NCBI RefSeq assembly: GCF_004359215.1
Contig: NW_027152021.1
Span: 225,924 to 289,923 of the forward strand
Direction of reading: 5' to 3'
Source of the DNA: Bremia lactucae
Lineage: Eukaryota > Oomycota > Peronosporomycetes > Peronosporales > Peronosporaceae
Length of the DNA stretch: 64,000 nt
Shown: piece by piece, positions 7,545 to 41,873 of the stretch
How the letters are laid out: every line of letters begins with the position of its first letter
Numbering within the stretch: position 1 is the first letter of the stretch
The notes under the pieces: model-generated
What the model saw: only the letters and a program-made list of their open reading frames with translations
What the model was told of the DNA's origin: nothing
Database searches by the model: none
Position numbers and translations under genes: made by a program

Positions 7545-7549
7545 TTGCG

Positions 7550-8076: not shown

Positions 8077-8101
8077 TTGCGTCAATATACTTCACATGAA
8101 G

Positions 8102-8580
8102 TGTAATGGGGCACACATCGGTTAAAGAACCGTTGTTGTGGTACATTTACTTTATGGGTAAAATACCCTTTTATCTAATTTAAAACTAGTTAGTTACTTA
8201 AATCCCATTTATTATGGATAACAAATGTGGTCGCCGCCAGATATAAATCTGGCGGCCAAAATCTATTTTAGCTAGGGTAAGGTTTTAGATTAAAAAAATT
8301 AAATAAAGTGCAGTTCTCCTTTTGATCTTTAAGCGTTAAGTGCCTTTCTAAGGCTTGCGCATTGATTTGTAAGAGATAGAAGCCTTCTAAGGTATATCCT
8401 CTTGGGCACTAGTTGCCACTTGGTTCTACGAACGCCTGAACTCCTTGAACTAGGATTCCTTAAGCTTTACTAGCTCGTACGACTCCCTGAGTTGTTAAAC
8501 CCATTAGTTCTATAGAACTAAGTGACTCTCTGAGTCTGAAAGTCTTCCTCTGACTTTAGGAGCGAGGTGGCTCCGCTACT
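8102..8580 (+). repeat. Family-A LTR (5' LTR of first family-A element)
   Basis: It starts TGTAATGGGGCACACATCGG and ends CTCCGCTACT, where sister copies end CTACA. Sister copies are at 34842-35125, 41495-41822 and, inverted, 17836-18297. It contains a perfect hairpin, CGCCAGATATAAATCTGGCG, at about 8233-8252. The 5 bp before it are TGAAG. A TGGTAGCACTCG primer-binding site begins 2 bp after it, at 8583. It shares more private bases with the 3' LTR at 41495-41822 than with the LTR at 34842. Confidence 0.8.
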
Positions 8581-8582
8581 TC

Positions 8583-8599
8583 TGGTAGCACTCGTAGTC
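8583..8599 (+). other. Probable tRNA primer-binding site of family A
   Basis: TGGTAGCACTCGTAGTC lies 2 bp inside the 5' LTR. The leading TGG fits a tRNA 3' CCA end, and the site is kept in the sister copies (about 35128 and, inverted, about 17820-17834). The tRNA species was not identified. Confidence 0.5.
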
Positions 8600-8640
8600 A
8601 ATCTACGCCTGAGTCTTTACATGACCAAACCCTCACGAAA

Positions 8641-9745
8641 ATGGAAGAGGTTCCAGGATTGTCAGAAGCGCAACGCGTCGCTTCTGACAAGCTCAAAGCC
8701 TTATTTGGGCTTAGGCACGTGGAATTTATTATCTCCCAGGGACCAGAGGACCTGCATGCAAGGCTTGAAGCCTTCATGCGGTACGAAGCCTCCCTGATCG
8801 GTCAGGTACAGGACCATTTGGCGGCATCTATGCCAACCCGGTACATCTCTGTACCTGACTCAGTGCCGAGGGCTCGCCCTCTAACTGTAAATGTGAAGAC
8901 ATTTGAGGAAAAAGAGGAAGAAAAATTTCCTTTTCGGATTAGGCAGATGGAAATGTCCATTGATTACGCCTTTTTCTTAACAGAACAAAATAATCTATAG
9001 CCATTTCCAAACTTGGAGGTAGAGCCATGTAGTGGGGACTATCGTGCAGCACGTCCATTAATGACGCTTTTCCCTCATGGGATTCGCTGAAACAGCAAAT
9101 GACCAGCATGTTTGCACCGCCTGATCAGGCTTTTCGCATGCGAGCACGGCTCCTAGCGACTCGACAGGGTAAGAGATCCCTAGGGGACTTTGTCCAGGAG
9201 TTGAGAACTCTCATTGCATCTATGCATCAAGACCCGGTGCAAGAAGCAATTGTAGTGACCATCTTTATGAGGGTCTCAATGAGGGCGTTGCCCGGACGGA
9301 ATTATTCCGATCTCATCCTGCTACTTTCGAAGAGGCAGTTGCCATAGCGCTACGCGTCGAGTTCGACTTTAAGTCTGCTCGCGTTAGCACACCTGTTTAC
9401 CGAACAAGCTCTTCGAGCACATGGGTTCATCTAATAGAGCGGAACTCACGGAATTTAAGCTTCGTTGAGGAAGGAGAAGAGGCTCTTCAAGCTCTGGAAC
9501 AGCATAAGACTTTCCGTAGATGTTATATGTGCGGAAGCACGAAACATTTACGTCCGGCCTGCCCTCTTCGAAATTCGCGTAAAGCTCGAAAGAGCTCCAA
9601 CTCCGACCTATACCAGAGATCTGGTACGGTGCGGGAAAACATATACCCAGTAGGTGCGGGTGCTCTACTGGGGAAGACCTAGGATCTGCTGAACCTCCAG
9701 GAGGTGAGAATAAACAGAACCTAGCCCCAATTAGCTTGGCGCTTA
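8641..9745 (+). pseudogene. Family-A gag, broken
   Basis: Gag starts at the ATG at 8641 (MEEVPGLSEAQR...) and is open to 9000, where TAG ends it. It resumes at 9099-9347 (MTSMFAPPDQAFRMRARLLA...), the capsid core, and ends with a CCHC knuckle, CYMCGSTKHLRPAC, at 9521-9562. Family-A gag in the sister elements (35182-36040 plus; 17775-16890 minus) shows the same order. Stops and frameshifts make it inactive. Confidence 0.75.
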
Positions 9746-9799
9746 ATGACACGGGGCGAAGTACAAGCCTGGCTTGCTAGTCGCTCACGCGACTGTAAA

Positions 9800-10135
9800 G
9801 GGCTTTGATAAGCTGTGGTCAATTTTAATTGACTCAGGAGCGTCTTGCAATTATGCTCGATGCCTTTCCCTTAAAGGAAGTTAACAATACGTTGAGACGC
9901 TTAAAGCGCATGAAGGTGATTAAATCATTGTTCGCTTAGCGACTGGGACTCGATTCACTGTTCCCAAAATTCCATTGAGCTTAAGAATAATGTTTCTGGA
10001 CTTTGAAAGTATGGAACGCTGTCTCGTCCTTGATTTGGATTCGAGATATGATCTCATCCTTGGTGTGGCCTTGTGAGAACACGATGAGCGATGGATCGAT
10101 TGGAGGTCTAAGACCTTAGGCGCCACGCGCAATGT
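9800..10135 (+). pseudogene. Family-A aspartic protease region, broken
   Basis: WSILIDSGASCNYAR is encoded at about 9816-9862, with the retropepsin DSG triad (Asp-Ser-Gly-Ala). Downstream, LATGTRFTVPKIPL-like and LVLDLDSRYDLILG-like strands follow in other frames, as expected for a retropepsin with its closing hydrophobic-G motif. The frame is interrupted. Confidence 0.65.
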
Positions 10136-10389
10136 TCCTAGCAAAGTTTTGGAGAGTCATGAATCCACCTTTGCTAGGCAGCAAAAGCGCTATTGGCGCG
10201 GATCATTGAATGAGTCTGTCAGTGTTTAAGACATTGGCATGTCTGAGGTGATAAACTTTAATGTTAAAAACTTTTATTCTGAGTCCGACTCGGCAGAAAT
10301 AAGTGGAACGGCACGTACTCCGTCGAGTGACGCTCGTTGTAATAACGATTCACTGAATGCTGAAAGCATTGCTGGCCTTAAGCGGAATC

Positions 10390-10627
10390 ATCATGTCCCT
10401 GAGATACGTGGAGTAGCACGTCTAAGTCCACCGAGTACGGTCGGCCGAGGTGGCATCATACTGAGTGTCAGTAGTGACACTTTGGCGGTTCGCCAGGACC
10501 TCAAGGGTGCAATATTCCTGAGATACGTGGAGTGACACGTCTAAGTCCACCGAGTGTGGTCGGCCGAGGTGGCACCATATTGAGTGTCAATAGTGACACT
10601 ATTGGCGGTTCGCCAGGCCATTTTGGG
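10390..10627 (+). repeat. 119-bp tandem duplication in the protease-RT linker
   Basis: CTGAGATACGTGGAGT occurs at about 10400 and again 119 bp later. The copies continue through the same CTAAGTCCACCGAGT, GTCGGCCGAGGTGGCA and GGCGGTTCGCCAGG blocks. The sister elements (about 36765-36870 plus; about 15940-16050 minus) have a single copy, so this is a private duplication. The surrounding linker, 10140-11127, has short open frames with no recognised domain. Confidence 0.75.
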
Positions 10628-10860
10628 TGAAACCCTTCTAATGCATGTGAAGCGACACGTAAATGTTCGCTGGATAAGGAAGTTGAGTTACCTAACTCCT
10701 TGTCAGATGTCAAATTAGACACCATGTTTTGTATAGAACCAATACAGGCTGGGAAACCCGGGGACGTGTATGTCCCGGCCTCTAAGGGGTGTATTATCTC
10801 CACTTCAAGACAGGATGGACACGAAGCGTGTATTCCCTCACAAAGTGATACGAGTGAGCT

Positions 10861-13220
10861 ATTACATACGCTTGTAAATGGTGTAACCGGTAACATTGAG
10901 GGGGAAGTTAGCCTTGCGGCAATCCCTTCGTAACATGCTCTTTAAGAGCTAGACGAAATGTCTATTGATGAGTGCGGCCGAGCCTTAAAGGCTGGCGACT
11001 TATCTGAGATGGTGGTCATTCGACCAACAATTGAGTTGAACTCATCGTCACTTCTAGACGAAGCTATCCTGGATGACACAAAAGCTCACTTAGTGCGCGA
11101 AATAGGTCATCGATCCTTAAAGATCCTATGGATCCCTTTAATTCCTTAATTAAGGAATTCCAAGATGTGGTATGTAATAATTCACCATCTGTTTTACCTC
11201 CGGATAGAGGTGTTCGTCATGAAATTGACTTGGTTCCGGGAACAAAATACTGTGATACAAGACAATGGCCTTTACCAAGGGAGCAGTGTGACGTCATTGA
11301 CGATTTCTTCCGTGCTAAGCACGAGGCTGGAATGGTACGAGAGAGAAAATCTCTCATTGACATCGACATTTTGTGTCAAAAAGCCAAATGGTAAATGGCG
11401 CATCGTACATGCTTTTATAATAAGCTTAATGATGTCACTATACCAGCACAAACCCCCATTCGAGAAAGGATGTTCTTCAGAATAATATGGTGGGATGTAC
11501 AATGCACAGTGCATTGGACTTCGTCGATGGTTACTACCAACTGCTCATGCGAGCTAGCGATATTCCGCTCACAGCGATTAGCACCCCAAGCGGTATGTTA
11601 TGGGAGTGGCTCGTAATGCCACAAGGGCTTTCCAACTCCCCGGCAACATTTAATTGTCTAGTGACGCAACTGTTTCGCCCTCATCGAGGTTATGCACAGA
11701 CTTAATTTGATAACATTTTTGTCCATAGTCGTGCGGAGCAGGGTCGGTCGGATATGGACAACCATTTAGACCATTTGCGAGCAGTGCTTGAGTGTATGCG
11801 CACAAATAAACTGTATGTTAATGCATCTAAATGTATTTTAGCGCAGACAAATTCCTCTTTTGGGATGTTTCATTGAAAAGCGAGGCCTTAGAGCGGATCC
11901 CGCTAAGGTAAAAGCCATAGTAGATTGTCCGGTTCCTAAATCCAAAAATATTTGCGCAAGTGGTTGGGTCTCGCCAATTATTTACACAAATATAGCGAAA
12001 ATTACGCCGATATAGCTAGGCCACTATCTAGTCTCCTTAAAAAGGATACAGAATGGTGCTGGACTAGCACCGAAAATAATGCTGTTCGAGCAATTAAGGA
12101 TAGTCTTATCCATGCTCCGATTCTGGCAATGCCAAATCCAATTGGCCTTTCAGTGTCTTCTGTGACGCATCATATTTTGCCATTGGCAGTGCTCTGTTAC
12201 AAACAGATGTTGATGGGCATGAACGTGTTATTGCATTCGAGTCTAGACAGCTTTAAGCTGCGGAAAAGAACTACCCAGTTCATGACAAAGAGTTACTTGC
12301 TATGAAGTATGCTCTCGTCAAATTCAGAGTTCACCTGCTCGGCTCTAAGCCGTTTGTGATATATACAGATGACGCGTCATTACGCACGGCGACTAAGTCG
12401 AACTTCGAGGTGAAGTATAAGCCCGGCAAGGAGAATGCTTTGGCCGATGCGTTATCACGCAGCCTGGATTATGAGCTTTCTCATTTAACAACTATCTTGT
12501 CGCCTATTCCTGAATTAATCCGTTCGGCTTACGCCAAGGATGAACAGTGTGTAGCTCTGCTACGAGCTTTAAAGAACTCTGATTCAGGTATTAAATTGCT
12601 GGCACGTTTGCGTGCAAGGTTACATCGATTTTCTATCGGTAACGACCTGTTGCTTTATTGCACAGACATCGCGGACCCTCCGCGTGTCGCTGTTCCTCAT
12701 GATGAGGATTTGAAGTACCGAATCCTCTATGAAGCACACGATACTGTCCTTAATGGTCATCTTGGTAGAGAAAATATCAACGGCTCTATAAGCCAGAGTT
12801 ATTGGTGGCCCAAACTTTATAAATGGGTCAGCACATGTGTTCGCACATGCGAAACTTGCCAACGGGTTAAACCCTCGCCGCATGCTGCGGCGCCACTGGC
12901 GAGCCTTCCCGTCCCAATAGGTTGCTGGGAGTCCATTAGTATGGATTTTGTTTTCGTTCTACCGAAAGATTCAGCCGGTAACTCCGGCATAGTGTCTCTG
13001 TTGACCGATTGAGCAAAATGGCTCACTTAGCGGCCGTGCCGGATTCCATTGATGGAGAAGGTACAGCTAAGCTGTTTATCGATCGCGTGTTTCGACAACA
13101 TGGTTTGCCAGTGGCAATTGTCTCTGATCGGGACCGCCGTTTCCCGGGTAAATTCAAAAACTAATTTTCTGAGTGCTTGGCACCAGATTACATATGTCCA
13201 CTGCGGACCATCCGCAGACC
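10861..13220 (+). repeat. Block apparently 100% identical to 37106-39465
   Basis: From ATTACATACGCTTG to the base before 13221, every line compared and every translated frame on both strands matches 37106-39465 at a constant offset of 26,245. The block covers the end of the linker, RT, RNase H and most of integrase, including shared stops and frameshifts. Immediately outside it, at 10860 and from 13221, the two elements differ by many substitutions. Confidence 0.85.
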
Positions 13221-13910
13221 GATGGTCAAACTGAACGTGTCAATTGCGTCATTAAAAACATTTTACGCAGTGTGTGTGTTCCAACACCAAAGCACTGGAG
13301 CTCAATGCTTCCAGTGGGATAATTTGCGTTAAATAACGCTGTCCATGCCTCTACAGGCTACACTCCGCTCTATGTCAACGGCCTCACCCACCCACGCGTT
13401 CCGTTAACGATACCACTGCGTGGCTTAGGGCTGGTAGGGGAGAATAAGCCGATGAGCTTGCTGATATTAGCCCTATTTACCATTTGGAAACAAGTAAGCG
13501 AGTTTATCGCAATACAATTTAGTGTCTTAAGACATGTACGTGACATGATGGCTGATAGCCAAGACAAACAAAAAGAAAAAGCATATGCCAAAAGCAGAAG
13601 CTGTATTAATGCTTATGTGGTCGGAGATTACCTTTAATTAAAAGCTAAGAATTAACCTATTAACTTGGTTTTCGCGATCTTCAAGACCAAATTGCGCCCG
13701 CGCTTTATTGGACAATTTACGGTCATGGCCAAGAAGACCCTAGCTTACACGCTTAACCTTCCTAGCAAGCTGCGTACACACCCAGTGTTCTACGTCGGCT
13801 TGCTTAAGCCATATCGGGATCCTTCCCACATGGACTTAACGCGGTTGCGCCGAGACAGGCGGTTAAGCCGCAGATTTCTGCATCCTCACCAGGATGTCCA
13901 AATGGCCCTC
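11128..13910 (+). pseudogene. Family-A pol: RT, RNase H and integrase, broken
   Basis: RT motifs appear in order across frames: HEIDLVPGTKY, VKKPNGKWRIVHAF, SALDFVDGYYQLL (motif A Asp), MPQGLSNSPATFNCL, then FDNIFVHS where active enzymes have YxDDI. A TAA precedes this and the second Asp is Asn, so the active site is lost. RNase H follows with VIYTDDASLRT and ENALADALSR. Integrase has an HHCC zinc domain (GHLGRENINGSI..., CVRTCETCQRVKPS), the core with SMDFVFVLPK and SDRDRRF, and near 13670-13800 the GPY/F-like module PRFIGQFTV...PVFYVGLLKPY. At least six frame breaks are visible. Confidence 0.8.
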
Positions 13911-14062
13911 TAAACGAGGTTGCTGATGTTCTAGCATCGAAAGAAGGTTTTGAACCGCCTCAAAAGTGCCCTCACCCGAGCAAGGCTCTCACGAAGAAGT
14001 TGCACTTCGTGCTCTTGAGCATCAAATGCTTCCATCCAGATTTCGGCCCCCTCCCGCGATGC

Positions 14063-14730
14063 TTAATGCGCGAGGGTACCTTCAGTTTCACGTGGAGAAA
14101 CTTTTAAAGCGACGTCGTCGTAAGGGCCAATACCAGTATCTGGTGAAGTGGCAGGGGTACCCCTCTTTTGAAAGCTCTTGGGAGTTTGAGGTACCTCTTC
14201 AGCAAGATTGCCCGTACGCCGTTGACGTTTTCGATCGCCAAGCTCAGAGTCAACTTGCGTCAAAGACGCTTTTCACCACTAGAAGTGGGATTAGGTGGAT
14301 CTATAGCCTCAGTGCGGCTTTATCCATGGTTATACGGTCAATCGAAGCACTGAAATATCGGCTAGGCCTTTCCTCGTTTTGTGGCTTAAATGCCGGACGT
14401 AACAGGCCTTTGGTCTTAAGCTTGGCGTAATCAAAGCGAAGCTTCCGTTCCAAACGATTATCAGCCACGTCCAAGACTCTATTATTCCAAATACTGCGGA
14501 GGCGGCGGGCCTGATGGACGCAGTTCTCAAATGAGACCTCGTTTTCGTTTTGACTTTTAATTCGTTTCGAAACAAACGATCGGAATTTCCCTCATTGAAG
14601 TCACCGAAGCCCCACGGGCCTGATCACGCAAATGCGTTAGATTCTTCGCGTCATTTCCTTTGGCGTAAGGTATTGCTCATGAAGAATATCGCGAGCAGCG
14701 AGCTCCTCCGACGTCCTGGCCGTGTGACCA
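14063..14730 (-). pseudogene. Broken copy of the family-A antisense ORF
   Basis: Two minus-strand frames, 14575-14330 and 14263-14063, align with the antisense ORF of the second element (41384-40395). Shared pieces include RKRQRRTGNLAEEVP and TPKSFQKRG. Frameshifts break this copy. It overlaps the sense chromodomain. Unlike the other copy, it reads on past FQKRG through TPATSPDTGI to KVSPRETEG, joining the antisense piece that in the second element lies in a separate frame. Confidence 0.6.
14085..14245 (+). pseudogene. Chromodomain at the integrase C terminus
   Basis: FHVEKLLKRRRRKGQYQYLV continues into KWQGYPSFESSWEFE. This is a chromodomain with its aromatic cage positions (Tyr, Trp, Trp). 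Such domains target chromoviral Ty3 elements to modified histones. It sits in the 154-codon frame 13966-14430. The same nucleotides are open on the other strand, where the element's antisense ORF runs. Confidence 0.8.
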
Positions 14731-14733
14731 AAA

Positions 14734-16640
14734 ATGCATTTAGATGCATTAGCATACAATTTATCTGTGCGCATACACTCGAGCACTACTCGAAATGGTC
14801 TATATAATTTTTCACATCCTACCGACCCTGCCCCGCACGACTATGGACAAAAAATTCATCAAAATAAGTCTGTGCATAACCTCAATGAGGGCGGAACAGT
14901 TGCGTCACTAGACGATTAAATGTCGCCGGGGCGTTGGAAATCCCTTGTTGCATAACCAACCACTCCCATGGCATACTGCCTGAGTTGCGCTGTAAGCGAA
15001 ATATCGCTAGCTCGCATGAGCAGTTGGTAATAACCATCGACTACGTCAAGTGCACTGTACATTGTACATCCCACCACAATGTTCTGGAGAACATCCTTTC
15101 TAGGAATGGGGGTTTGTGCAGGTATAGTGACAGCATAAGAAAAGCTTATTATAAGCAGTACAATGTGCCATTTGCCATTTGGCTTTCTGACTCAAAATGT
15201 CGGTGTCGAACGGGGAGATTTGCTTTGTCGTACCATTCCAGCCTCGTGCCTAGCTCGGAAAAATTGTCAATGTTGTCACACTGTTTCCTTGGTAAAGGCC
15301 ACTGTCGTGTGACAGAGTATTTGTTTCCAGGGATTAAGTCAATTTCATGACGGACACCTCTATCCGGGGGTAAACAGATGGTATATTTGACAGATCACAT
15401 CTTAAAATTCTTAATCAAGGAATAAAATGGATCTGCGGATCTTTAAGGATTGATGATCCACTCCGCGCACTAAGTGCAGCTTCTGTGTCATCCAGGACAA
15501 CTTCGTCCAGAAGTGACGATGAGTTTAACTTAATCGTTGGTCGACTGACCACCGTCTCAAGAAGCCGCCAGCCTTTAAGGCTCGACCGCACTCATCACTA
15601 GACATTTTGTCTTTCTCCAGAAGAGCATGTTACGAAGGGATTGCCGCAAGGCTCAATTCGCCCTCGATTTTACCGGTTACACCATTTACAAGCATATTCT
15701 ATTCCTTACTCGTATCACTTTGTGAGGGTATAGATACTTTGCATCTCGCCTGCCTTGGAGTAGAGACAATACGCCTCTTAGAGGCCGGCACATTCACGTC
15801 TTCAAATTTTCAGCCTGTATAAGATCTATACCAGAGCTGGTGTCTACTTCGACATCCGACAAGGAGTTAGAAAACTCAGCTTCCTTGTCCACATGTCACT
15901 TCACGTGCATTAGAAGAGTTTGACACGAAATGCCCTAGCGAACCGCCAATAGTGTCACTGCTGACACTCAGTATGGTGCCACCTCGGCCGAACAAACTCG
16001 GTGGACTTAGACTTGCCACTCCACGTTTCTCAGGGATATTACACCCTTGATGACTCGGTCTAAGGCCAACAGCTTTCAGCATTCATTGAGGCGTTTTTAC
16101 AACGAGTGTCACTCGACGGAATACGTGCCGTTCCACTTAATTCTGTTGCGGGCTCAAACTTAATGTTTTCAACATTGGGTTTATTAACTTAGACATTCCA
16201 ATGTCTAACCCACTGACAGATTTAGTCAGTCATTCGCACCAATAGCGTTTCTTGTTGCCTAGCAAAGGTGGGCTCATTACTCTTCGAAACTTTGCTAGGA
16301 ACATTGCGTGTGACGCTTAAGGTTTTAGACCTTCAATCGATCCATGGCTCTTGGCGTTCAAGCCAGGCCATACCAAGGATGAGATCATATCTCGAATCCA
16401 ATCAAGGACGAGACCACGTTGCATACTGTCAAAGCCAAGAAACTTTATGCGTAAGTTCAAAGGAACTCTAGGAAGAGTGACACGAGCCCCAGTCGCTACG
16501 CGAACAGTGATTGAATTACTTTCATGCGCTTTAAGTCCTAAACGTATTGTTGACTTCTTACAATCAAAGACGTCGAGCATAATTGCAAGACGCTCCTGAG
16601 CAAATTAAAACTGACCATGGCTTATCAAAGTCCATTCACA
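14734..16640 (-). pseudogene. Protease, linker and partial RT of the inverted element
   Basis: At about 16620-16580 the minus strand reads WSVLICSGASCNYAR: the catalytic Asp of the DSG triad is replaced by Cys (TGC for GAC). The linker follows to about 15430, then RT from its N-terminal strands through the motif-A region (DYVKCTVH... and degraded equivalents) to the truncation at 14734. The frame is broken throughout. Confidence 0.6.
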
Positions 16641-16879
16641 GTCGCTTGAGCGACTAACAAGCCAGGCTTGTACTCACGTCCCGTGCCATTACGCAAAGAG
16701 CTAATTGGGGTTAGGTCATGTCTACTCTCACCTCCGAGAGTTTTAATAGAGCCTAGGTCTTCCCCGGTTACTGGGTACCGACGTTTTTCGCACCGTACCA
16801 GATTTCTGGTATATGTCGGAATTGGTGCTCGTTCGAGCTTAACGAGTATTTAGTTGGGGACAGGCCAGACGTAAATTTT

Positions 16880-17775
16880 TCTTGCTTCCGCACATAAAAC
16901 ATCTAATGATTTCATGCTGTTCCACAGCTTGAAGTGCCTCTTCTCCTTCCTCAACAAGGCTTAGATCCATGGGTTCCGGTCTATTAGATGGTACCCATGT
17001 GCTCGAAGAGCTTGTTTGGTAAATAGGCGTGCTAACGCGAGCAGACTTAAAGTCGAACTCGGTGCGTAGCGCTATGGCAACTGCCTCTTCATAAGTAGCA
17101 GGATGAGATCGGATTAATTCCGTCCGGGCAACGCGCCTTCATTGAGACCCCCCATAAAGATGGTTCCTACAATTGCTTCTTGCACCGGGTCTTGATGCGT
17201 AGATGCAATGAGAAATCTCAACTCCTGGACAAAGTCTCCTAGGGTTCTTTTACCCTGTCGAGTCGCTAGGAGCCGTGCTCGCATGCGAAAAGCCTGATCA
17301 GGCGGTGCAAACATGCTGGTCATTTGCTGTTTCAGCGAATCCCATGAGGGAAAAGCGTCATTTATGGACGTGCTGCACGATAGTGCCCGCTCTACCTCCA
17401 AGTTTGGAAATAACCATAGCCACCTTTTGCCGTTCTGTTAAGAACAAGGCGGAATCAATGGACATTTCCATCTGCTCAATCCAAAAAGGGAGATTTTCTC
17501 CCTCTTTTCCCTCAAATGTCTTCACATTTACATTTAGAGGGCGAGCCCTCGGCTCTGAGTCAGGTACAGAGATATACCGAGTTGGCATAGAAGCCGCAAA
17601 GTGGTCCTACCTGACCGACCAGGGAGGTTTCGTTCCGCATGAAGGCTTCAAGCCTTGCATTTAGGACCTCTGGTTCCTGGGAAATAATAAATTCCACGCG
17701 TTCAAGCTCGAATAAGGTTTTAGGCTTGTCATAAGCGGCGCGTTGCGCTTCTGACAACTCTGGAACCTCTTCCAT
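16880..17775 (-). pseudogene. Family-A gag of the inverted element, broken
   Basis: Frames 17775-17560, 17588-17358 and 17401-17114 read as gag in order: [37 protein letters not shown], then the capsid core SWDSLKQQMTSMFAPPDQAF. A CCHC knuckle region follows near 16890. This copy keeps more of the capsid frame than the plus-strand sister, but frameshifts separate the pieces. Confidence 0.7.
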
Positions 17776-17835
17776 TTTCGTGATGGATTAGTTTTGTAAA
17801 GACTCAGGCGTAGATTGACTACGAGTGCTACCGAG

Positions 17836-20518: not shown

Positions 20519-20534
20519 TCCTCCCCGATTTGAT

Positions 20535-25887: not shown

Positions 25888-25908
25888 AGACCAACAAGTG
25901 GTACCACT

Positions 25909-31429: not shown

Positions 31430-31859
31430 TAAGTGTGCTTCATATATATGTGACCCACCCTTATGTATGTGATGCACATTGGTACATCCTAGCGTCATCC
31501 GCTATGCGAAATACCCAAAAACGATACGCTCGCAGCACATATTAGTCTATCTACAAAGACGGCATTTATGCTAGGTAATAACAGAAATTTATATTTAATG
31601 CGATTAAATATAAATCAGTCTTAAACTTACAATATACTTGATAAGTTTGCACGAGGAGCCGGATTACCGCTCCCGTGACGACACTTTTATCAGTGTACTT
31701 CGTGAGTTGGGTGAGGTCGCTAAGGCGCCCACCACAAACCTCACTGCACGTGAGAGAAGGCGGTAAATCGTCGAAGGTGTGTGCGTGCGTAGTACGTGGC
31801 AGCTTTAAGTAGCGCCCGTCTACACTTGGTGGAACTTGAAATCCTTCCCACGACCCGCA

Positions 31860-32920
31860 TCTTTGAGCGTGTACGTGAGGATGAGCCTCAATATCGATTG
31901 GACTCATTTCCCCCCACCTCCGAACATCATCGGGAGTTGGCTGAGCAGACGGCGCAGGGACTTAGGGAACAAGCCATGGCCAGGGTCTTGGGTAGTCTCC
32001 TGAGCAACATGTTACTCAGTTGGAGCAGTTTGACGCACTCATGCTCGGACAGCGAAGGGTCGCGTCCGAGGCACAAAGCCATGCTACGGCGGAGTCTGTC
32101 ACACAGACTCAGGATGAGCTAAGGCGAGAGCAGGCTCGAAGCGAGGCTTTCAACAGGACTGTTAAGATGCTCTCCGCTCTCAGCCGAGGCTTATTCGGAT
32201 GGACCCGCCCAAGTTCGATGGAACTGCAGCGCGCACGATATCCATCGGCTGTTAGCAGTAAAGCAATGCGGTGTGTCGCAGCTAATCGAAGATGACAGCC
32301 CGATGGTGCCGTACTCCATGTCGCACCCGCGCGGTAAAGCCTCAGAGTGGGCTTACTCGGCGGGTATAGCGTATTCAAGGTGTTCCCTTCATGGGCGATT
32401 ATAAGACAAAGACTCGCGCCATGTGCCAGCCACCAAACAACGAGGTGTTGCATAAGGTGCGCGTTTTCGGGGCGTGGCAGGCGAAGCGATCTATGCAAGA
32501 GCATGTGCAGGAGATGCACTAGCTGTCGGGATCAATTACCGTAGGTCCGATTGGGGAGCACATAAAAGTGCCCAAGTTTATGAACGGAATACGTCATGGC
32601 TCATCGTGACAGGCTCTTATTAGAAAGGTGCCGTCAACGATGGAATCCAAATTGCCTTAGTTGAGGAGAAATTTTACAACAGTGCCTCGGCGATAGCTTG
32701 GTATAAGCCGTCGGCCGAGAGAACAGGTGTCACTTCCATGGAGTTGGGCAATGCAGACGTTGTCTGTCACAAATGTGGCAAGCGCAGTCATATGAGCGCT
32801 GCTATGCCTGGGCCCCTGCTGGGGCGAAGACGCCCAGCAAGAGGAATCCCTTTCCGAAGAGCGATGGCAATAACCAGCGTGCGAGACGCATGAGTCCGCA
32901 TCTACCACTGAGGGGTCGAA
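31860..32920 (+). pseudogene. Family-B gag, broken
   Basis: It matches the minus-strand gag at 5600-6667 piece by piece: the N-terminal EHHRELAEQTAQGLREQAM, the helix QTQDELRREQARSEAF, and near 32755-32800 the knuckle CHKCGKRSH followed by an altered end (the last Cys spacing is disturbed by a small deletion). Several frameshifts and stops. Confidence 0.7.
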
Positions 32921-32923
32921 AAA

Positions 32924-33560
32924 ATGCAGGAGAAAGCTGAGGTAAATCGCTTTAGCTTCATCGATGGCCTGTTATGGCATCAGCTGTCACCTTGTGATTC
33001 CTTGGGAATCTATGTGCCTCATGACACAGACCTCAAGCTGATGACCCTTCACGAGCTCCATGATGCGCCATCTAGTGGGCATCTGGGCCGTGAAAAGACA
33101 TTCTTACGAGTGTCAGAGAAATTTTGGTGAACGCACTTATTTAGATGGGTGGCCAACTATATTCGCTCTTGCGAACAGTGTCAGCATAAAGCCTGCACCG
33201 TCCAGCAGTGCGCCACTGAAGCCGCTACCGATTCCAACCAACTGTTGGAAGTCAGTAAGTCTAGACTTCACATTAGGGTCGGACGGGGCTCGTCGTCTTC
33301 GTAAACGGTCTAAGCAAGATGGTTCATTCAGCACCATGTAAGACATCGATCAAAGGCAAGTAGGCAGCTCTCTTGTCCTGGATCGCGTATACCGATTACA
33401 CGAGATGGCCGAGTCCATAGTATTGGACCGGGATCAATGATTTACGTCTGGGTTTTGGCGACAAGTGCTTGGGCTGCTAGGTGGCGAGTTCCCCATGTCG
33501 ACTGCAGACCATCCTCAGATCAATGGCCAAACAGAACGTGCCAATCAGGTCGTGGTGGAT
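32924..33560 (+). pseudogene. Family-B integrase fragment
   Basis: Frames 32924-33130 and 33060-33341 give IYVPHDTDLKLMTLHELHD, SSGHLGREKTF (HH half of the zinc domain) and, in a shifted frame, the CEQCQHKA CxxC half. SVSLDFTLG marks the first catalytic Asp region. Near 33495-33550 MSTADHPQINGQTERAN covers the segment with the last catalytic Glu. Sequence leaves the element near 33560. Confidence 0.7.
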
Positions 33561-33694
33561 AAATAGATATAATGGCCTATACCTATTTATGGATAAGATT
33601 TCTGAACATTACTATGTAAGTAATATTCTCCAAATATTCTCTACCTTTTAGATAATATATTAATAAACTATTTATAAGTGTTAATTTTATGTAA

Positions 33695-33843
33695 CGATAC
33701 ACCCCGTCGTAGCATGCGTGCGGCCCAGAACATCTAAGGGCATCCCAGACCTGTTATTGCCTCCAACTTCCTTTGGTTTGATTACCCAAAAGTCCATCTA
33801 AGAAGTCCACACACCTACCAAAAATGGTAAGCGGAACTATTTA
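33695..33843 (-). pseudogene. 18S rRNA gene fragment (antisense, decayed)
   Basis: Reverse complemented, the stretch contains GGCAATAACAGGTCTGGGATG, then CCCTTAGATGTTCTGGGCCG and CACGCATGCTA. These are the conserved 3'-domain sequence of eukaryotic small-subunit rRNA around the AACAGGTCTGTGATGCCCTTAGATG core, with a few substitutions. Upstream of it GGACTTCTTAGATGGACTTTTG also fits. Only about 150 bp of the gene is present and it is mutated, so it is a pseudogene scrap between an integrase remnant and a family-B LTR fragment. AT-rich sequence of unknown origin lies at 33561-33694. Confidence 0.8.
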
Positions 33844-34030
33844 GCACGAGCCGGATTACCGCTCCCGTGAAGACACTTAATCAAAGTACTTAGTGCGTTA
33901 GGTGAAGTCGCTAACGCGCCCACCGCAACTACCTCACTGCACGCAAAAGAAGCTGGTTAAACCGCCTCCTCGCTGTGCTATGGTGTGTGTATAAGTAGAG
34001 CGTGGCCGCATTACGACGTGCCCGCTTGCA
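33844..34030 (+). repeat. 3' portion of a family-B LTR
   Basis: It matches the last 185 or so bases of the solo LTR at 7550-8076: CGAGCCGGATTACCGC, CGCCCACCGCAACTACCTCACTG, GTGTGTGTATAAGTAGAGCG. The 5' portion is replaced by the 18S rRNA scrap. It could be the damaged 3' LTR of the 31430-33560 remnant. Confidence 0.65.
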
Positions 34031-34793
34031 GTTTACTGATGCCTGAATTGAGTCCTGAGCATTTATCGTTTAATTAAAATTCATCAGATAGGAAGATCAA
34101 TAAAAATCTTGAGTCTGGTTCGCGAGGCGAAAATAGCCAAATCGACCACCCTTACAATGAAGCTTAAATTTTAGCCCACGCAATTTTAATTTTAGAGGTC
34201 GAGCATAATTTCGAGCGTACACTCGCTGCAGCATATATTTACAGCGGAACATCGTAGGAAGATGCAGGTATCATTTAGGCCTTCGCTGTCTACTGAAAGT
34301 CGTTTACGCTATCACTACATTTAGGTTAGCGTCAGCAGTTGGCGTATGCGTAAAATTTTAACGCTCGCTCATACCAGGCTTGCTCCTGATCTGGTAATCG
34401 ACAATATCAAAGCCGGGTCTAAGAATGGGTCTGGCTTGGTCCCGCCTTTTCGAGTACAGCTAATCACACATGCGGAGGCTGCCTATTTGGCGTTACTCGA
34501 AGAGCAGCACGCGCACCGAAAGGCCTTATCAAATTACTATAGTGGCCGCTTATGCCATATACAACTTAAATAACGTTCCTATAAAGCTCAGCAGTGTGTC
34601 CAACAAATGGTGCTGGTCGAATGTACGGTTCCGTACCGCTTGGAGGTCGAAACCTCAATACCGAACAAAATGGAGTTAACGTTAGACATATGGAATATCA
34701 TCAAATGTTGACGTTGCATTTTATGCGCAATCGGAGACGCGGTTGTGCCTGTTCACGCGCGCTCGCCCAAATCGACGTGTTTTTGACTGCCTC
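34031..34793 (+). repeat. Repeat R (plus copy), uninterrupted
   Basis: This is the same sequence as 18298-18511 plus 19042-19600 in inverse orientation, without the solo LTR. A 75-codon frame (34346-34573, starting MRKILTLAHTRLAPDLVIDN) is the longest open stretch and contains AEAAYLALLEEQHAHRKAL. I do not recognise the product. In both copies R abuts the start of a family-A LTR. Confidence 0.6.
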
Positions 34794-34841
34794 TGTAATG
34801 AGGCACACATTGGTTGGAGAACCGTTTTGTGGTACCTTTAT
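34794..34841 (+). repeat. First 48 bp of a family-A LTR, cut by the next element
   Basis: TGTAATGAGGCACACATTGG and on to GGTACCTTTAT matches the start of the inverted family-A LTR at 18297. After 48 bp a second, different family-A LTR begins at 34842, so one family-A LTR interrupts another at this point. Confidence 0.75.
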
Positions 34842-35125
34842 TGTAATGGGGCACACATCGGTTGGAGAACCGTTGTTGTGGTACATTTACTTTATGGGTA
34901 AATACCCTTTTATTCTATTTTAAAATAATTAATTACTTAAATTCCATTTATTATGGGTAACAAATGTAGTCGCCGCCAGATATATATCTGGCGGCCGAAA
35001 TCTATTTTGAATTAGCTACGGTAAGGTTTTGAATTTAAATTAAAATTAAAAATGCTGAGTTTTCCTTTTGATCTTGAAGTCTAAAAGTCTTCCTCTATCT
35101 TTAGCAGCGAAGAAGCTCCGCTACA
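34842..35125 (+). repeat. Family-A LTR (5' LTR of second element)
   Basis: 284 bp, TGTAATGGGG ... CTCCGCTACA, followed by TCTGGTAGCAC. It lacks about 190 bp present near the end of the 8102 LTR and carries private changes (AGATATATATCTGGCGG where 8102 and 41495 have AGATATAAATCTGGCGG). Confidence 0.8.
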
Positions 35126-35181
35126 TCTGGTAGCACTAGTAGTCAATCTCTGAGTCTTTATAAGACTAAGCCTTCACTGAA

Positions 35182-36040
35182 ATGGAAGAGGTCTCAAAAC
35201 TTATAGAAGCGCAGGGCATAGCGTATGACAAGCTCAAAACTTTATTTGGGCTTGAATATGTAAAGTTCAGTATATTCAGGGACCAGAGGTTTTGCATGCA
35301 AGGGTTGAAACCTTCATGCGTACGAATCCTCCCCGATCGGCCAGGTTCAGGATCACCCTTGCGGCATCTATGCCAACTCGGTATATCTCTGTACCTCGAA
35401 GATAGAGCCATGGAGTGGGCACTCTCGTGCAGCGTCCATAGACGACGCTTTTTTTTCTCATGGGATTCGGTAATTCAGCAAATGACCAGCATGTTTGCAC
35501 CGCCTGATTAGGCTTTACGCATACGATCACGGCTCATAGCGACTCGACAGGGTAAACGAGCCCTAGAGGACCATGCCCAGGAGTTGAGAACACTCATTGC
35601 ATCTATGCTTCAAGGCCCGATGCAAGAAGCAACTATCGTAAATTTTTTTGGGGTTTCTCAATGAAGGCGTTGACCGTTCGGAATTATTACGACCCCATCC
35701 AGCTACTTTCGAAGACGCAATTGCCATAGCGCTACGCGCTGAGTTCGTCTTTAAGTCTGCTCGCGTTAGCCCGCCTATTTACCGAACAAGCTCTTCGAGC
35801 ACATTGGTACCGTCTAATAGACCGGAATTCATGGATCTACGCCTCGTTGAGGAGGGAGAAAAGGCACTTCAAGCAGTGGAACAGCATGAAATCATTTGTA
35901 GATGTTGTATGTGCGGAAGCACGAAACATTTACGTCCGGCCTGTCCCCTACAAAATACTCGTAAAGCTCAAAATAGCACCAATTCCGACCTATACCAGAA
36001 ATCTGGTACGGTGCGGAAAACGTCGATACCATGTAGGTGA
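35182..36040 (+). pseudogene. Family-A gag of the second element, broken
   Basis: It starts at the ATG at 35182 (MEEVSKLIEAQG), continues in shifted frames through WDSVIQQMTSMFAPPD and, in 35648-36040, LLRPHPATFEDAIAIALRAEF to the knuckle CCMCGSTKHLRPAC near 35905-35945. About 80% similar by eye to the gag at 8641. Confidence 0.7.
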
Positions 36041-36149
36041 AAACCGCTCTACTGGGGAAGACCTAGGCTCTGTTAAAACTCTAGGAGGTGAGAATAAATA
36101 GAATCTAGCCCCAATTAGATCGGTGAGAGTACAAGCCTGGCTGCTAGTC

Positions 36150-37205
36150 GCTTTAGCGACTGTAAAGGGTTTTGATAAGCCGTGGTCAATTATAATTGAC
36201 TCAGGAGCGTCTTGCACTTATGCTTGACGTCTTTCGCTTGAGGGAAACTAATGCGTTGGGGACTTAAAGCGCATGAAAGTGATACAATCACTGCTCGCTT
36301 AGCGACTGGGACTCGTGTCACTGCTCCTAAAGTTTCTTGAATTTAGGCAAGAAGTTTCTGGACTTTGACAGTATGGAACGCTGCCTCGTCCTTAATCGAA
36401 TTCGAGATATGATCCCATCCTTGGTATGGCCTGGATTAAACGCCATGAGTCACGGATCGATTGGAGGTCTAAGACCTTAGGCACCACGCGCAATGTTCCA
36501 AGCAAATTTCTGAGAAGTCATGAGCCCACCTTTGCTAGGAGACAAAAGCGCTATTGGCGCATATGACTGACTAAATTTATCAGTGTGTTAGACATTGTAA
36601 TATCTGAGTTACTAAATCCAATGTTGAAAACATTTATTTTGGGCTTAACTCAGAAAAAGGAGTTGGAATGGCACGTATTCCGTCGAGTAGCAATTGTTTT
36701 AAAAACGATTCACTAAATGCTAAAAGCATTGTTGGCCTAAGACCGAGTCATCAAGGGTGTTATATCCCTGAGATACGTGGAGTGGCAAGTCTAAGTCCAC
36801 CGTGGTCGGCCGAGGTGGCATCATGCTGAGTGTCAGTAGTGACATAATTGGCGGTTCGCCATGGCATTTCGGGTCAAACCCTTTTAATGCACGTGAAATG
36901 ACACGTAAACGGTCGCTGGACAAGGAAGCTGAGTTACCTAATTCCTTGTCGGATGTCGAAGTAGACACCAGCTCTGGTATAGATCCCATACAGGCTGAAA
37001 ATTTGAAGACGTGAATGTCCCAGCCTCTAAGAGGCGTATTGTCTCTACTCCAAGGCTGGCGAGACGCGAAGGGTCTATACCCTCGCAAAGTGATTTGAGT
37101 AAGGAATTACATACGCTTGTAAATGGTGTAACCGGTAACATTGAGGGGGAAGTTAGCCTTGCGGCAATCCCTTCGTAACATGCTCTTTAAGAGCTAGACG
37201 AAATG
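36150..37205 (+). pseudogene. Protease and linker region of the second family-A element
   Basis: WSIIIDSGASCTYA is encoded near 36183-36225 with the retropepsin DSG triad. It is followed by a degraded core and a linker with a single copy of the CTGAGATACGTGGAGT block. Short open frames occur in the linker but no other domain is recognised. Confidence 0.6.
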
Positions 37206-39465
37206 TCTATTGATGAGTGCGGCCGAGCCTTAAAGGCTGGCGACTTATCTGAGATGGTGGTCATTCGACCAACAATTGAGTTGAACTCATCGTCACTTCT
37301 AGACGAAGCTATCCTGGATGACACAAAAGCTCACTTAGTGCGCGAAATAGGTCATCGATCCTTAAAGATCCTATGGATCCCTTTAATTCCTTAATTAAGG
37401 AATTCCAAGATGTGGTATGTAATAATTCACCATCTGTTTTACCTCCGGATAGAGGTGTTCGTCATGAAATTGACTTGGTTCCGGGAACAAAATACTGTGA
37501 TACAAGACAATGGCCTTTACCAAGGGAGCAGTGTGACGTCATTGACGATTTCTTCCGTGCTAAGCACGAGGCTGGAATGGTACGAGAGAGAAAATCTCTC
37601 ATTGACATCGACATTTTGTGTCAAAAAGCCAAATGGTAAATGGCGCATCGTACATGCTTTTATAATAAGCTTAATGATGTCACTATACCAGCACAAACCC
37701 CCATTCGAGAAAGGATGTTCTTCAGAATAATATGGTGGGATGTACAATGCACAGTGCATTGGACTTCGTCGATGGTTACTACCAACTGCTCATGCGAGCT
37801 AGCGATATTCCGCTCACAGCGATTAGCACCCCAAGCGGTATGTTATGGGAGTGGCTCGTAATGCCACAAGGGCTTTCCAACTCCCCGGCAACATTTAATT
37901 GTCTAGTGACGCAACTGTTTCGCCCTCATCGAGGTTATGCACAGACTTAATTTGATAACATTTTTGTCCATAGTCGTGCGGAGCAGGGTCGGTCGGATAT
38001 GGACAACCATTTAGACCATTTGCGAGCAGTGCTTGAGTGTATGCGCACAAATAAACTGTATGTTAATGCATCTAAATGTATTTTAGCGCAGACAAATTCC
38101 TCTTTTGGGATGTTTCATTGAAAAGCGAGGCCTTAGAGCGGATCCCGCTAAGGTAAAAGCCATAGTAGATTGTCCGGTTCCTAAATCCAAAAATATTTGC
38201 GCAAGTGGTTGGGTCTCGCCAATTATTTACACAAATATAGCGAAAATTACGCCGATATAGCTAGGCCACTATCTAGTCTCCTTAAAAAGGATACAGAATG
38301 GTGCTGGACTAGCACCGAAAATAATGCTGTTCGAGCAATTAAGGATAGTCTTATCCATGCTCCGATTCTGGCAATGCCAAATCCAATTGGCCTTTCAGTG
38401 TCTTCTGTGACGCATCATATTTTGCCATTGGCAGTGCTCTGTTACAAACAGATGTTGATGGGCATGAACGTGTTATTGCATTCGAGTCTAGACAGCTTTA
38501 AGCTGCGGAAAAGAACTACCCAGTTCATGACAAAGAGTTACTTGCTATGAAGTATGCTCTCGTCAAATTCAGAGTTCACCTGCTCGGCTCTAAGCCGTTT
38601 GTGATATATACAGATGACGCGTCATTACGCACGGCGACTAAGTCGAACTTCGAGGTGAAGTATAAGCCCGGCAAGGAGAATGCTTTGGCCGATGCGTTAT
38701 CACGCAGCCTGGATTATGAGCTTTCTCATTTAACAACTATCTTGTCGCCTATTCCTGAATTAATCCGTTCGGCTTACGCCAAGGATGAACAGTGTGTAGC
38801 TCTGCTACGAGCTTTAAAGAACTCTGATTCAGGTATTAAATTGCTGGCACGTTTGCGTGCAAGGTTACATCGATTTTCTATCGGTAACGACCTGTTGCTT
38901 TATTGCACAGACATCGCGGACCCTCCGCGTGTCGCTGTTCCTCATGATGAGGATTTGAAGTACCGAATCCTCTATGAAGCACACGATACTGTCCTTAATG
39001 GTCATCTTGGTAGAGAAAATATCAACGGCTCTATAAGCCAGAGTTATTGGTGGCCCAAACTTTATAAATGGGTCAGCACATGTGTTCGCACATGCGAAAC
39101 TTGCCAACGGGTTAAACCCTCGCCGCATGCTGCGGCGCCACTGGCGAGCCTTCCCGTCCCAATAGGTTGCTGGGAGTCCATTAGTATGGATTTTGTTTTC
39201 GTTCTACCGAAAGATTCAGCCGGTAACTCCGGCATAGTGTCTCTGTTGACCGATTGAGCAAAATGGCTCACTTAGCGGCCGTGCCGGATTCCATTGATGG
39301 AGAAGGTACAGCTAAGCTGTTTATCGATCGCGTGTTTCGACAACATGGTTTGCCAGTGGCAATTGTCTCTGATCGGGACCGCCGTTTCCCGGGTAAATTC
39401 AAAAACTAATTTTCTGAGTGCTTGGCACCAGATTACATATGTCCACTGCGGACCATCCGCAGACC
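37106..39465 (+). repeat. Block apparently 100% identical to 10861-13220
   Basis: A 2,360-bp direct repeat at a constant offset of 26,245. The first mismatch upstream lies in GGA|ATTAC against GCT|ATTAC; the first downstream is CAGACCAATGG against CAGACCGATGG at 39466/13221. Confidence 0.85.
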
Positions 39466-40080
39466 AATGGTCAAACTGAACGTGTCAATCGCGTCGTTGA
39501 AGACTTTTACGCAGCGTGTGTGCTCAGACACCAATGCGCTGGAGCTCAATGCTCCAAGTGGTGGAATTTGCGTTAAATAACGCTGTCCATGCCTCTACAG
39601 GCTATACTCCGTTCTATGTAAACGGTCTTGCCCACCTACGCATTCCATTAACGATACCACTACGTGGTTTAGGGCTTGGTAAGGGAAAATTAGCCGATAG
39701 GCTTGCTGATGTCAGCCCTGTTACCGTTCGGAAACAAGTCAGCGAGTTTCTCGCGACGCGATTTAGTGTCTTAAGACATGTAAGTGATACGATGGCTGAT
39801 AGGCAAGACAAACAAAAAAAACAAGCAGATACCAAAGGCAAAAGCTGTATTAATTATTATTTGGTCGGAGACCGAGTTTTACTAAACGCTTAAATCTACC
39901 TACCAACTTGGTTTCCGCAGTTTTCAAGACCAAATTGCGCCCGCGCTTTATTGGACCATTTACGGTCGTGGCCAAGAAGGGCCTAGCTTATACGCTAAAC
40001 CTTCCTAGCAAGCTGCTCACGCATCCAGTGTTCTACGTTGGCTTGCTTAAGCCTTTCGGGACCCTTCCCACGTAGACTTG
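37373..40080 (+). pseudogene. Family-A pol of the second element: RT, RNase H and integrase, broken
   Basis: Through 39465 it is the same sequence, with the same stops and the same FDN for YxDD lesion, as the pol at 11128-13220. After that it differs: the frame 39516-39893 is open through VVEFALNNAVHASTGYTPFYVNG and the integrase helix region, better kept than its counterpart at 13235-13640. The GPY/F-like module (RPRFIGPFTVVAKKG) follows near 39930-40030 in another frame. Confidence 0.8.
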
Positions 40081-40340
40081 AAGGCGCTTGCGCCGAGACA
40101 GGCGGTCGTGCCGCAGATTGCTGCATCCTCACCAGGATGTCCAGCTGGCCCTCTAAACGAGGCTGCTGACGCTCCAGCGTCGAAAGACGGTCCCGAACCG
40201 CCTCAAAAGAGCTCTTAACCCGAGCAAGGACCTCACGAAGAAGTTGCACCTCGTGCCGTAGAACATCAAATGCTTCCGCCGAAAATTCGGACCCCTCCCG
40301 CGCTGCTTGATGCGCGGGGGAACCTTCAGTTTCATGTGGA
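39995..40340 (-). pseudogene. Downstream part of the antisense ORF with coiled coil, frame-separated
   Basis: On the minus strand a frame open from about 40340 to 39995 reads through AFDVLRHEVQLLREVLARV, SSFEAVRDRLSTLERQQPRL and DILVRMQQSAA, with a heptad pattern of a coiled coil. There is no ATG, and it lies directly downstream of the stop of the antisense ORF. In the first element the corresponding sequence links to that ORF in one frame up to KVSPRETEG. I infer that the ancestral antisense protein was about 460-470 residues and ended in this coiled coil. Confidence 0.5.
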
Positions 40341-40500
40341 TAAACTTTAAAGCGACGTCGTCGTGAGGGTCAATACCAGTATCTGGTGAAGTGGCTAGGG
40401 TACCCTCTTCTGAAAACTCTTGGGAGTTCGAGGTACCTCTTCGGCAAGATTGCCCGTACGCCGTTGACGTTTTTGAGCGCCAAGCTCAGGGTCAACTCGC
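40330..40500 (+). pseudogene. Chromodomain of the second family-A element, frame-broken
   Basis: The nucleotides align with the chromodomain at 14085-14245 (GTCAATACCAGTATCTGGTGA, then GGGAGTTCGAGGTACC), but the plus frame is interrupted by stops and shifts. Over 40395-40500 the opposite strand is open, as part of the antisense ORF. Confidence 0.6.
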
Positions 40501-41384
40501 GTCAAACGACGCTTCCCACCACTAAACGTGGGATTAGGTGGATCAATAGCCTCAATGCGGCTTCGATTCATGGTTGTACGGTCAACCGAAGCACTGAAAT
40601 ATCGGCTAGGCCTTTCTTCGTTTTGTGGCATAAATGCCGAACGTAACTGGCCTTTGGCCTTAAGCTTAGCGAAATCGAAGCGAAGCTTCCGTTCCAAATG
40701 AACATCACCTCTATCCGCAGACTCTCTGATACTCCAAAAAATATATATTACGAAGTCGGCGGGCCCGGTGGACCCAGTTCTCAAATGAGACTTCGTTTTC
40801 ATTCCTTGTTTCGTTTGGAGACAGAACGATCGGAATTTCCCCATGGAGGTCACCGAAGCTCCACGGGCTTGATCACGTAAACGCGTCAGATACTGGCATC
40901 GCGTTATTATCTTTGACGTAAGGTATTGCTCATGAAAGGCGTCGCGGGCAGCGATCTCTTCCGGCGTCCTCTCCGGGTCACCGGAGATCCAGGTGCCCAA
41001 GCTGTGACCCGCTATCTCTTTGAGACGCTCGTCCACACTAAGCGGAGTGAATCTATATTCACTATGAGCTTTACCTTTCGCTATCTCGGCAGCCCGACGA
41101 CGACCTTTTTCCTCTATGAGGATTATCCGCTCTTGCTCTTCATGGAGCGGATTCGTAATGATGTTGGACTCAGGGTCCCGTATCCTGCTCAATGCAGTTA
41201 AGACATCAGCGGCACCACGTTCTGGGAGCGGATTCGGGGCCCGCCGATGTTCACCCGGAGGAGAAGGCGTGAGAGAACGACGCTCTTTCTCCTCCTCCTC
41301 TGAAGGAGAGTGACTTTCAAAGTCCACCATTCCCTCATCGTCGAGGAAGGTGCTAAGAGTCTGTGACTCACGCTTGATTGTCAT
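40395..41384 (-). CDS. Antisense ORF of family-A Ty3 element, unknown protein
   Basis: A 329-codon uninterrupted frame on the strand opposite gag-pol, from ATG 41384, starting 110 bp inside the 3' LTR and reaching into the chromodomain. It begins MTIKRESQTLSTFLDDEG, has a Ser/Glu/Pro-rich stretch (about 23-55, SPSEEEEKERRSLTPSPPGE), a long predicted-helical charged middle (HEEQERIILIEEKGRRRAAEI) and a basic C terminus (GAQKRQRRTGNLAEEVP). No family is recognised. The plus strand over the same bases is closed in all three frames except short pieces. A broken homologue lies at 14063-14730. It could be driven by antisense transcription from the 3' LTR. Some plant Ty3 elements (Retand type) also carry an antisense ORF here; homology is not implied. 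Confidence 0.6.
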   Translation of the reverse strand: MTIKRESQTLSTFLDDEGMVDFESHSPSEEEEKERRSLTPSPPGEHRRAPNPLPERGAADVLTALSRIRDPESNIITNPLHEEQERIILIEEKGRRRAAEIAKGKAHSEYRFTPLSVDERLKEIAGHSLGTWISGDPERTPEEIAARDAFHEQYLTSKIITRCQYLTRLRDQARGASVTSMGKFRSFCLQTKQGMKTKSHLRTGSTGPADFVIYIFWSIRESADRGDVHLERKLRFDFAKLKAKGQLRSAFMPQNEERPSRYFSASVDRTTMNRSRIEAIDPPNPTFSGGKRRLTRVDPELGAQKRQRRTGNLAEEVPRTPKSFQKRVP

Positions 41385-41494
41385 GAGACAAAGGAATGAA
41401 AAACACAACCGAACGGTTAGCTGTTAAGGCTCCAACCTCAACGAGGAAATGAAGCGAATGTTGTCACTCGGTGTCAACAGTCTGATGCGGGGGG

Positions 41495-41822
41495 TGTAAT
41501 GGGGCACACATCGGTTGGAGAACCGTTGTTGTGGTACATTTACTTTATGGGTAAAACACCCTTTTATCTAATTTTAAAATAGTTAGTTACTTAAATTCCA
41601 TTTATTATGGGTAACAAATGTGGTCGCCGCCAGATATAAATCTGGCGGCCAAAATCTATTTTAATTTAGCTAGGGTAAGTTTTTTTAGATTTAAATTATT
41701 AAATAAAGTGTATTTCCCCTTTTGATCTTAAAGTTGTTAACACCATTATTTTAATATAACTAAGTGACTCTCCGAGTCTGAAAGTCTTCCTCTGACTTTA
41801 GAAGCGAGGTAGCTCCGCTACA
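41495..41822 (+). repeat. Family-A LTR (3' LTR)
   Basis: 328 bp, TGTAATGGGG ... CTCCGCTACA. Preceded by GATGCGGGGGG, a G-rich run in the polypurine-tract position. Shares AGATATAAATCTGGCGGCCAAA, TAAATAAAGTG and TAACTAAGTGACTCTC with the 8102 LTR, and has lost about 150 bp from its middle. Host 3' sequence starts at 41823. Confidence 0.8.
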
Positions 41823-41873
41823 TGAAGTAATAATTGTCCATCCCAAAACAAATTCACGAGTTTTTCTACAATC

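Follow-up and report, generated by a model that had tools for sequence, protein, structure and literature searches.

Introduction

The described systems closest to the locus reported here are the Ty3 (Metaviridae) retrotransposons of oomycetes, the integration of linearised plasmids in yeast and the misassembly documented for the SF5 genome of Bremia lactucae. The locus itself is a B. lactucae Ty3 element divided into two halves by an insert of about 24 kb, very probably as the result of an assembly error. It lies in a stretch of 64,000 nucleotides (assembly GCF_004359215.1, contig NW_027152021.1, positions 225,924 to 289,923 of the forward strand), hereafter called the window, the first letter of which is position 1 of the coordinates used below. 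The element is like other oomycete Ty3 elements in its long terminal repeats (LTRs), which start with TGTAATG and mostly end with TACA, in its 5-bp target duplications and in its integrase zinc-binding domain; as a point of difference, the copies seen here are old, and the element itself shows nothing unusual.

In yeast, linearised plasmids integrate in the ends-in (gap-repair) mode by homologous recombination. The present locus resembles the product of such an event, with an insert flanked by direct repeats of its target, filled from the target, whereas here the insert is known from assembly copies alone, which are identical and partly broken by joins made of N. As to genome assembly, the Celera assembler is known to re-use repeat contigs.

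The assembly that we analysed fits the B. lactucae SF5 assembly, which is its likely source. According to the portions of the two published accounts available to us, the SF5 pipeline started from Moleculo reads assembled with Celera, followed by SSPACE, AHA, HaploMerger2, REAPR, GapFiller and Hi-Rise (PMC6570648), and the re-scaffolded assembly of 115.9 Mb comprises 19 linkage-group scaffolds and 200 others, its Hi-C reads being filed under BioProject PRJNA387613 (PMC8061198). The same portions report that one SF5 gene was 'erroneously duplicated multiple times', as judged from read coverage, and was masked, that the read coverage of repeats is about double that of genes (PMC6570648), and that 19 of the 21 scaffolds longer than 1 Mb appeared chimeric (PMC8061198). 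The likeness to the present case would lie in sequence multiplied without read support and in false joins within repeats (PMC6570648, PMC8061198), whereas what the papers name, in those portions, is one putative effector gene and chimeric scaffolds rather than an insert of about 24 kb. In addition, the insert was not described in any of the titles returned by a non-exhaustive literature search.

Results

One Ty3 element in two halves

The outer limits of the split element are a 5' LTR (8102–8580, plus strand), identified by alignment to other LTRs, and a 3' LTR with an internal deletion (41495–41822, plus strand), likewise placed by LTR alignment. The end of the former was set at 8580 by alignment, where a T stands in place of the A of sister copies. 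Direct reading shows the pentanucleotide TGAAG immediately outside both outer LTR ends, at 8097–8101 and at 41823–41827, so that the two LTRs are surrounded by the matching 5-bp target duplication expected of a Ty3 element. The LTR that starts at 34842, inside the insert, is preceded instead by TTTAT, which closes a 48-bp fragment of the start of another LTR (34794–34841, plus strand, by alignment) that served as the target of the 34842 element; the latter is therefore an element without TGAAG.

Between the outer LTRs, the left half consists of a 5' internal part (8581–10860, plus strand), about 80–85% similar to 34842–37105 and to an inverted element of the insert, and of a block (10861–13220, plus strand) in which a frame at 12302–13012 (plus strand) encodes an integrase zinc-binding domain (Pfam PF17921), the sole Ty3 domain scanned in the split element. 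The right half starts with a second copy of the block (37106–39465, plus strand) and continues with a 3' internal part (39466–41494, plus strand), assigned by homology and position. The two copies of the block are identical over 2,360 bp, and their edges are sharp, the adjoining windows of 100 columns having 76–90 matches. Outside its own contig the best genome match of the block reaches 90%, which identifies it as sequence proper to the split element that stands both to the left and to the right of the insert. Taken together, 8102–13220 and 39466–41822 measure 7,476 bp, while the non-element stretch between them (13221–37105) measures 23,885 bp.

The LTR distances point in the same direction. 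Specifically, the 8102 and 41495 LTRs differ at 24/320 positions (7.5%), compared to 36/275 (13.1%) for 8102 and 34842 and 33/279 (11.8%) for 41495 and 34842; on these distances, the 8102 LTR pairs with 41495 rather than with 34842. The two LTRs of a further locus (5.7 and 6.1%) are slightly closer to the 8102 LTR than is its 41495 partner. Two short motifs that the original prediction had regarded as private to the outer pair turned out to be widespread, AGATATAAATCTGG occurring in 16/29 and TAAATAAAGTG in 8/29 family LTR pieces, a set in which several pieces are partial and seven had been picked for their likeness to the 8102 LTR. At the three loci measured, LTR pairs are 4.1, 7.5 and 7.9% apart, a divergence that marks these Ty3 copies as old.

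In conclusion, 8102–13220 and 39466–41822 together make up one old Ty3 element, flanked by a single target duplication. The structural claim of the original prediction, which had rested on the exact block, the outer TGAAG and the pairing of the LTRs, is right, and it extends to other loci, as described below.

The insert occurs in about 30 places of the assembly without base differences

The whole assembly (115,934,607 bases in 220 contigs) was searched with portions of the insert. All copy counts include the window locus and are lower bounds, the best candidates having been scored. The region carrying the genes (26400–31200; 4,801 bp) was found in at least 28 full-length and 3 partial places, all 100% identical, among the best 38 of 59 candidates; the remaining matches in that set were only seven, of 228 bp and 84% identity. 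Exact full-length places numbered at least 27 for 34032–34793, at least 26 for 31000–34100 and at least 22 for 14700–20000, with further truncated copies of the last among the matches. Hence at least 28 places reach the self-match score, an identity beyond natural expectation. In the copies sampled, 100% identity runs from 17315 to 35959, past both inverted repeats of the insert and into Ty3 sequence, and the edges of the insert differ from copy to copy.

The stretch of about 24 kb, with Ty3 sequence at both ends, is therefore present in about 30 places of the assembly, a multiplicity that the original prediction, made from the letters of the window, had no means of seeing. The only copy of the gene region seen without Ty3 ends lies on another contig (C2:4661577–4676440); it covers approximately 18569–33410, with 99% and 98% identity at its edges and 100% in 26400–31200, and is a candidate for the native locus of the insert. 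No second genome copy of the right flank of the window locus (41829–44700) was found.

Each readable copy lies within another Ty3 element

The outer Ty3 ends were sought at 15 copies, including the window locus (on contig C220), and both LTRs were readable in 10. Among the five others, the copy on C19 and that on C131 at 2.47 Mb had no LTR in the fetched stretches, C4 had no LTR on the left and N on the right, C107 had an LTR on the left only, its right side showing N, and the copy on C10 at 1.1 Mb had N runs at both outer ends. At all 10 readable copies the insert is surrounded by a Ty3 element with a target duplication of its own, the same anatomy as in the window. The duplication matches at 5/5 bases in C220, C1, C16, C129 and C10 (1.85 Mb), and at 4/5 in C7, C131 (1.57 Mb), C5, C95 and C11; in control pairs taken across loci, 2/90 matched at 4/5 and none at 5/5. 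On C16 and C10 the last LTR bases are not TACA, and the boundary was set by alignment. On C131 (1.57 Mb) and C10 (1.85 Mb), a single older Ty3 or LTR runs on from one flank of the insertion point to the other.

Exact repetition of Ty3 sequence on the two sides of the insert was observed at all eight loci read on both sides. The exact stretches common to the two sides amount to 2,360 bp on C220, 768 bp on C1, 1,777 and 364 bp on C7, 1,717 and 319 bp on C131, 832 and 100 bp on C16, 885 bp on C129, 964 bp on C5, and 615 bp plus shorter ones on C10 (1.1 Mb), the lengths for C16, C129 and C5 being limited by the fetched length. Expressed in window terms, the left edges fall at about 12.40–12.66 kb at five loci (C1, C131, C129, C16 and C5), at 13.22 kb on C220, at 14.39 kb on C7 and between about 12.5 and 13.46 kb on C10, while the placeable right edges fall between about 10.0 and 12.27 kb. 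Every gap read on both sides takes in the interval of about 12.27–12.40 kb. The edge tracts are 3–37 bp long, with 4/8 exceeding the 75th and 2/8 the 90th percentile expected at random positions.

Breaks within copies and a control repeat

Several copies are interrupted by N. One copy is distributed over two scaffolds: its first part breaks off on C5 at insert position 28476, before a run of 100 N, and C11 begins after N at 28478. The two parts are thus one base apart, and this is a join contradicted by later scaffolding, shown for the C5/C11 copy rather than for the C220 copy. In addition, the C1 copy has 100 N between insert positions 33057 and 33059, the C107 copy stops at 34059 and, after 100 N, resumes at 34061 in the opposite orientation, and a second copy on C11 begins after N at insert position 29523.

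As a control, we considered a different repeat of the window. Its portion 1–5400 is found in nine exact places genome-wide, the window included. The repeat extends to 5626, and past 5566–5627 the three loci compared drop to about 70–94% per 100 columns while remaining in register, with divergence points that differ slightly from one locus to another. An exact core with diverged edges is thus a mosaic that is not peculiar to the insert.

Contents of the insert

The insert begins with a truncated 3'-side Ty3 piece (13221–14717, plus strand), 99% identical in many copies and with a variable edge, followed by an inverted, 3'-truncated Ty3 whose LTR is at the 18297 end (14731–18297, minus strand, by homology). 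At 14717–14731 two truncated Ty3s thus stand tail to tail (8102–14717 forward and 18297–14731 reverse), neither of them with a 3' LTR at the junction. Next comes a repeat (18298–19585, minus strand, by alignment), inverted relative to 34032–34793 and 89–93% identical to it, which is interrupted at 18512–19044 by a 533-bp repeat also present at 7549–8077. Degenerate retrotransposon frames occupy 20495–24828 (minus strand), one of them with an RVT_1 domain (22934–23602).

The cargo consists of a gene for a VTT-domain protein (26566–27363, plus strand; a frame of 265 aa; Pfam PF09335) and a gene for a DUF4460 protein (29955–31058, plus strand; 367 aa; Pfam PF14687) with oomycete homologues. Between them, a frame of 206 aa (28978–29598, plus strand) has a by-eye likeness to the C-terminal part of the adjoining DUF4460 gene. 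The right-hand counterpart of the inverted repeat, known from its genome matches, follows at 34032–34793 (plus strand), so that the inverted repeats bracket the region of host genes. The insert ends with the 5' part of a second Ty3 with its LTR (34842–37105, plus strand), 99% identical in many copies.

These cargo genes are conserved genes of host type. The DUF4460 protein, like the DENR protein encoded next to the insert in the window, is closest to proteins of Phytophthora and downy mildews (for DENR, among 120 of 224 matches listed). VTT and DUF4460 domains occur in a single protein (P0050) of Peronosclerospora sorghi, and two DUF4460 proteins of P. infestans are numbered consecutively (PInf_028201 and PInf_028202). 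DENR and DUF4460 are on contigs of different length in P. oleae, Peronosclerospora sorghi and Hyaloperonospora brassicae; Plasmopara halstedii and P. infestans likewise have them apart, but there the evidence is weaker, several contigs or a poor hit being involved. Given that these contigs differ in relatives, it is unlikely that the insert is native at this locus.

Two other identities for the insert were considered and rejected. A self-contained DNA transposon bounded by the inverted repeats 18298–19585 and 34032–34793 is excluded by the fact that the copies do not end there, their identity passing both repeats and their edges varying between loci. Against a viral or plasmid genome stands the content of the insert, in which the frames examined, a part of the total, are genes of host type and degenerate pieces of retrotransposons.

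Elsewhere in the window, a short tandem array with a 21-bp unit in 3.8 copies was noted at 60584–60662.

Discussion

The data presented above lead us to consider that the split of the Ty3 element by the insert is, with high probability, an assembly error. The true locus would be one old, degenerate Ty3 of about 7.5 kb, with its 5' LTR at 8102, its 3' LTR reaching 41822 and TGAAG on both sides. Its two sides would have been left as contigs overlapping by 2,360 bp at their ends, and a stretch of about 24 kb from elsewhere (13221–37105), with Ty3 ends and carrying the VTT and DUF4460 genes, would have been placed between them. The same stretch would have been re-used alike about 30 times, each time inside another Ty3 element. 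We infer that these placements are false and that the duplicated block comes from the overlapping contig ends. Of the two origins offered by the original prediction, a DNA circle or an assembly error, it is thus the second that is favoured, although its version of the error, a collapsed repeat used twice, is too small for about 24 kb in about 30 places; overall, that interpretation is partly supported.

We prefer an assembly error to a new kind of mobile DNA, considering that the same piece sits in many Ty3 copies without a base difference, none having been seen over at least 28 full-length places of 4,801 bp. The preference rests, in addition, on the erroneous multiplication and the chimeric scaffolds documented, in the portions available to us, for the likely source assembly, on a cargo of host type whose DENR neighbour is on other contigs in relatives, on the N breaks inside copies and the copy whose halves are on different scaffolds, and on the same mosaic in the control repeat (1–5626). 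Several points weigh against it. The junction stretches are free of N at 7/7 loci counted (C220, C1, C7, C131, C16, C129 and C5), and the switches to diverged flanks stay in register. The exact target repeats at 8/8 loci and the clustered left edges suit a real donor with fixed ends just as well. Long identical repeats, even genuine ones, may be broken in the course of scaffold correction, the identity of the copies may stem in part from consensus building, and the copy divided between two scaffolds is another than that of the window. Finally, the case is built on assembled sequence.

The chief alternative, which we regard as improbable, is a real and very recent spread, in which an extrachromosomal DNA of about 24 kb bearing host genes, either a circle opened within its Ty3 segment or a linear molecule with Ty3 ends, would have integrated ends-in by homologous recombination into about 30 Ty3 elements, the gap being filled from each target with duplication of roughly 0.8 to more than 2 kb of it. 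Such an event would account for the exact target repeats, for the target duplications at the 10 readable copies of the 15 tried, for edges that vary by locus while all two-sided gaps include about 12.27–12.40 kb, and for junctions without N. However, the same geometry is equally expected from overlapping contigs kept apart with a Ty3-ended contig placed between them, so that target duplications and exact overlaps do not separate an artefact from ends-in integration. What speaks against a real spread is the lack of any base difference among the full-length places, the N joins and the copy divided between scaffolds, the recurrence of the mosaic in another repeat and the erroneous multiplication reported, in the available text, for the likely source (PMC6570648); the edge tracts show no strong preference for long identity and decide neither way. 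We hold it very unlikely that the copies are instead those of a real multicopy segmental duplication made artificially identical by the assembler: assemblers do collapse near-identical copies, and the available text reports the roughly doubled coverage of SF5 repeats (PMC6570648), but a duplication alone would leave unexplained why every copy read lies in a Ty3 with exact target repeats, and why the halves of one copy are on different scaffolds.

Two further explanations have next to no probability in our estimation. Gene conversion between two resident elements, with the agreement of TGAAG arising by chance, would give an exact block between diverged flanks, but it is ruled out by the target duplications found around the same insert at all readable loci and by the LTR distances, and the insert is present elsewhere without the 2,360-bp block. 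Homing-type copying, in which an insert-bearing Ty3 serves as the template for mending a break in an empty one, would likewise carry one insert through a family of repeats, and can be dismissed just as firmly on its geometry, for it predicts donor sequence beside the insert and no duplication of the target, whereas target sequence stands on both sides at 8/8 loci.

The two main readings, assembly error and real spread, differ in what they mean for B. lactucae. If the copies were shown to be real by read depth, they would offer a striking example of repeat-guided homologous amplification, and the Ty3 family would provide landing sites for gene amplification without a transposase. If, as we favour, the copies are an assembly error, the assembly, a reference genome, would through about 30 placements of about 24 kb be inflated by roughly 0.7 Mb and by dozens of false gene copies, and Ty3 elements that are whole in nature would appear split, misleading work on copy number, gene families and the dating of retrotransposons. 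The combination of an exact core, an in-register switch to diverged flanks and one outer target duplication is a signature for which other repeat-rich drafts can be screened.

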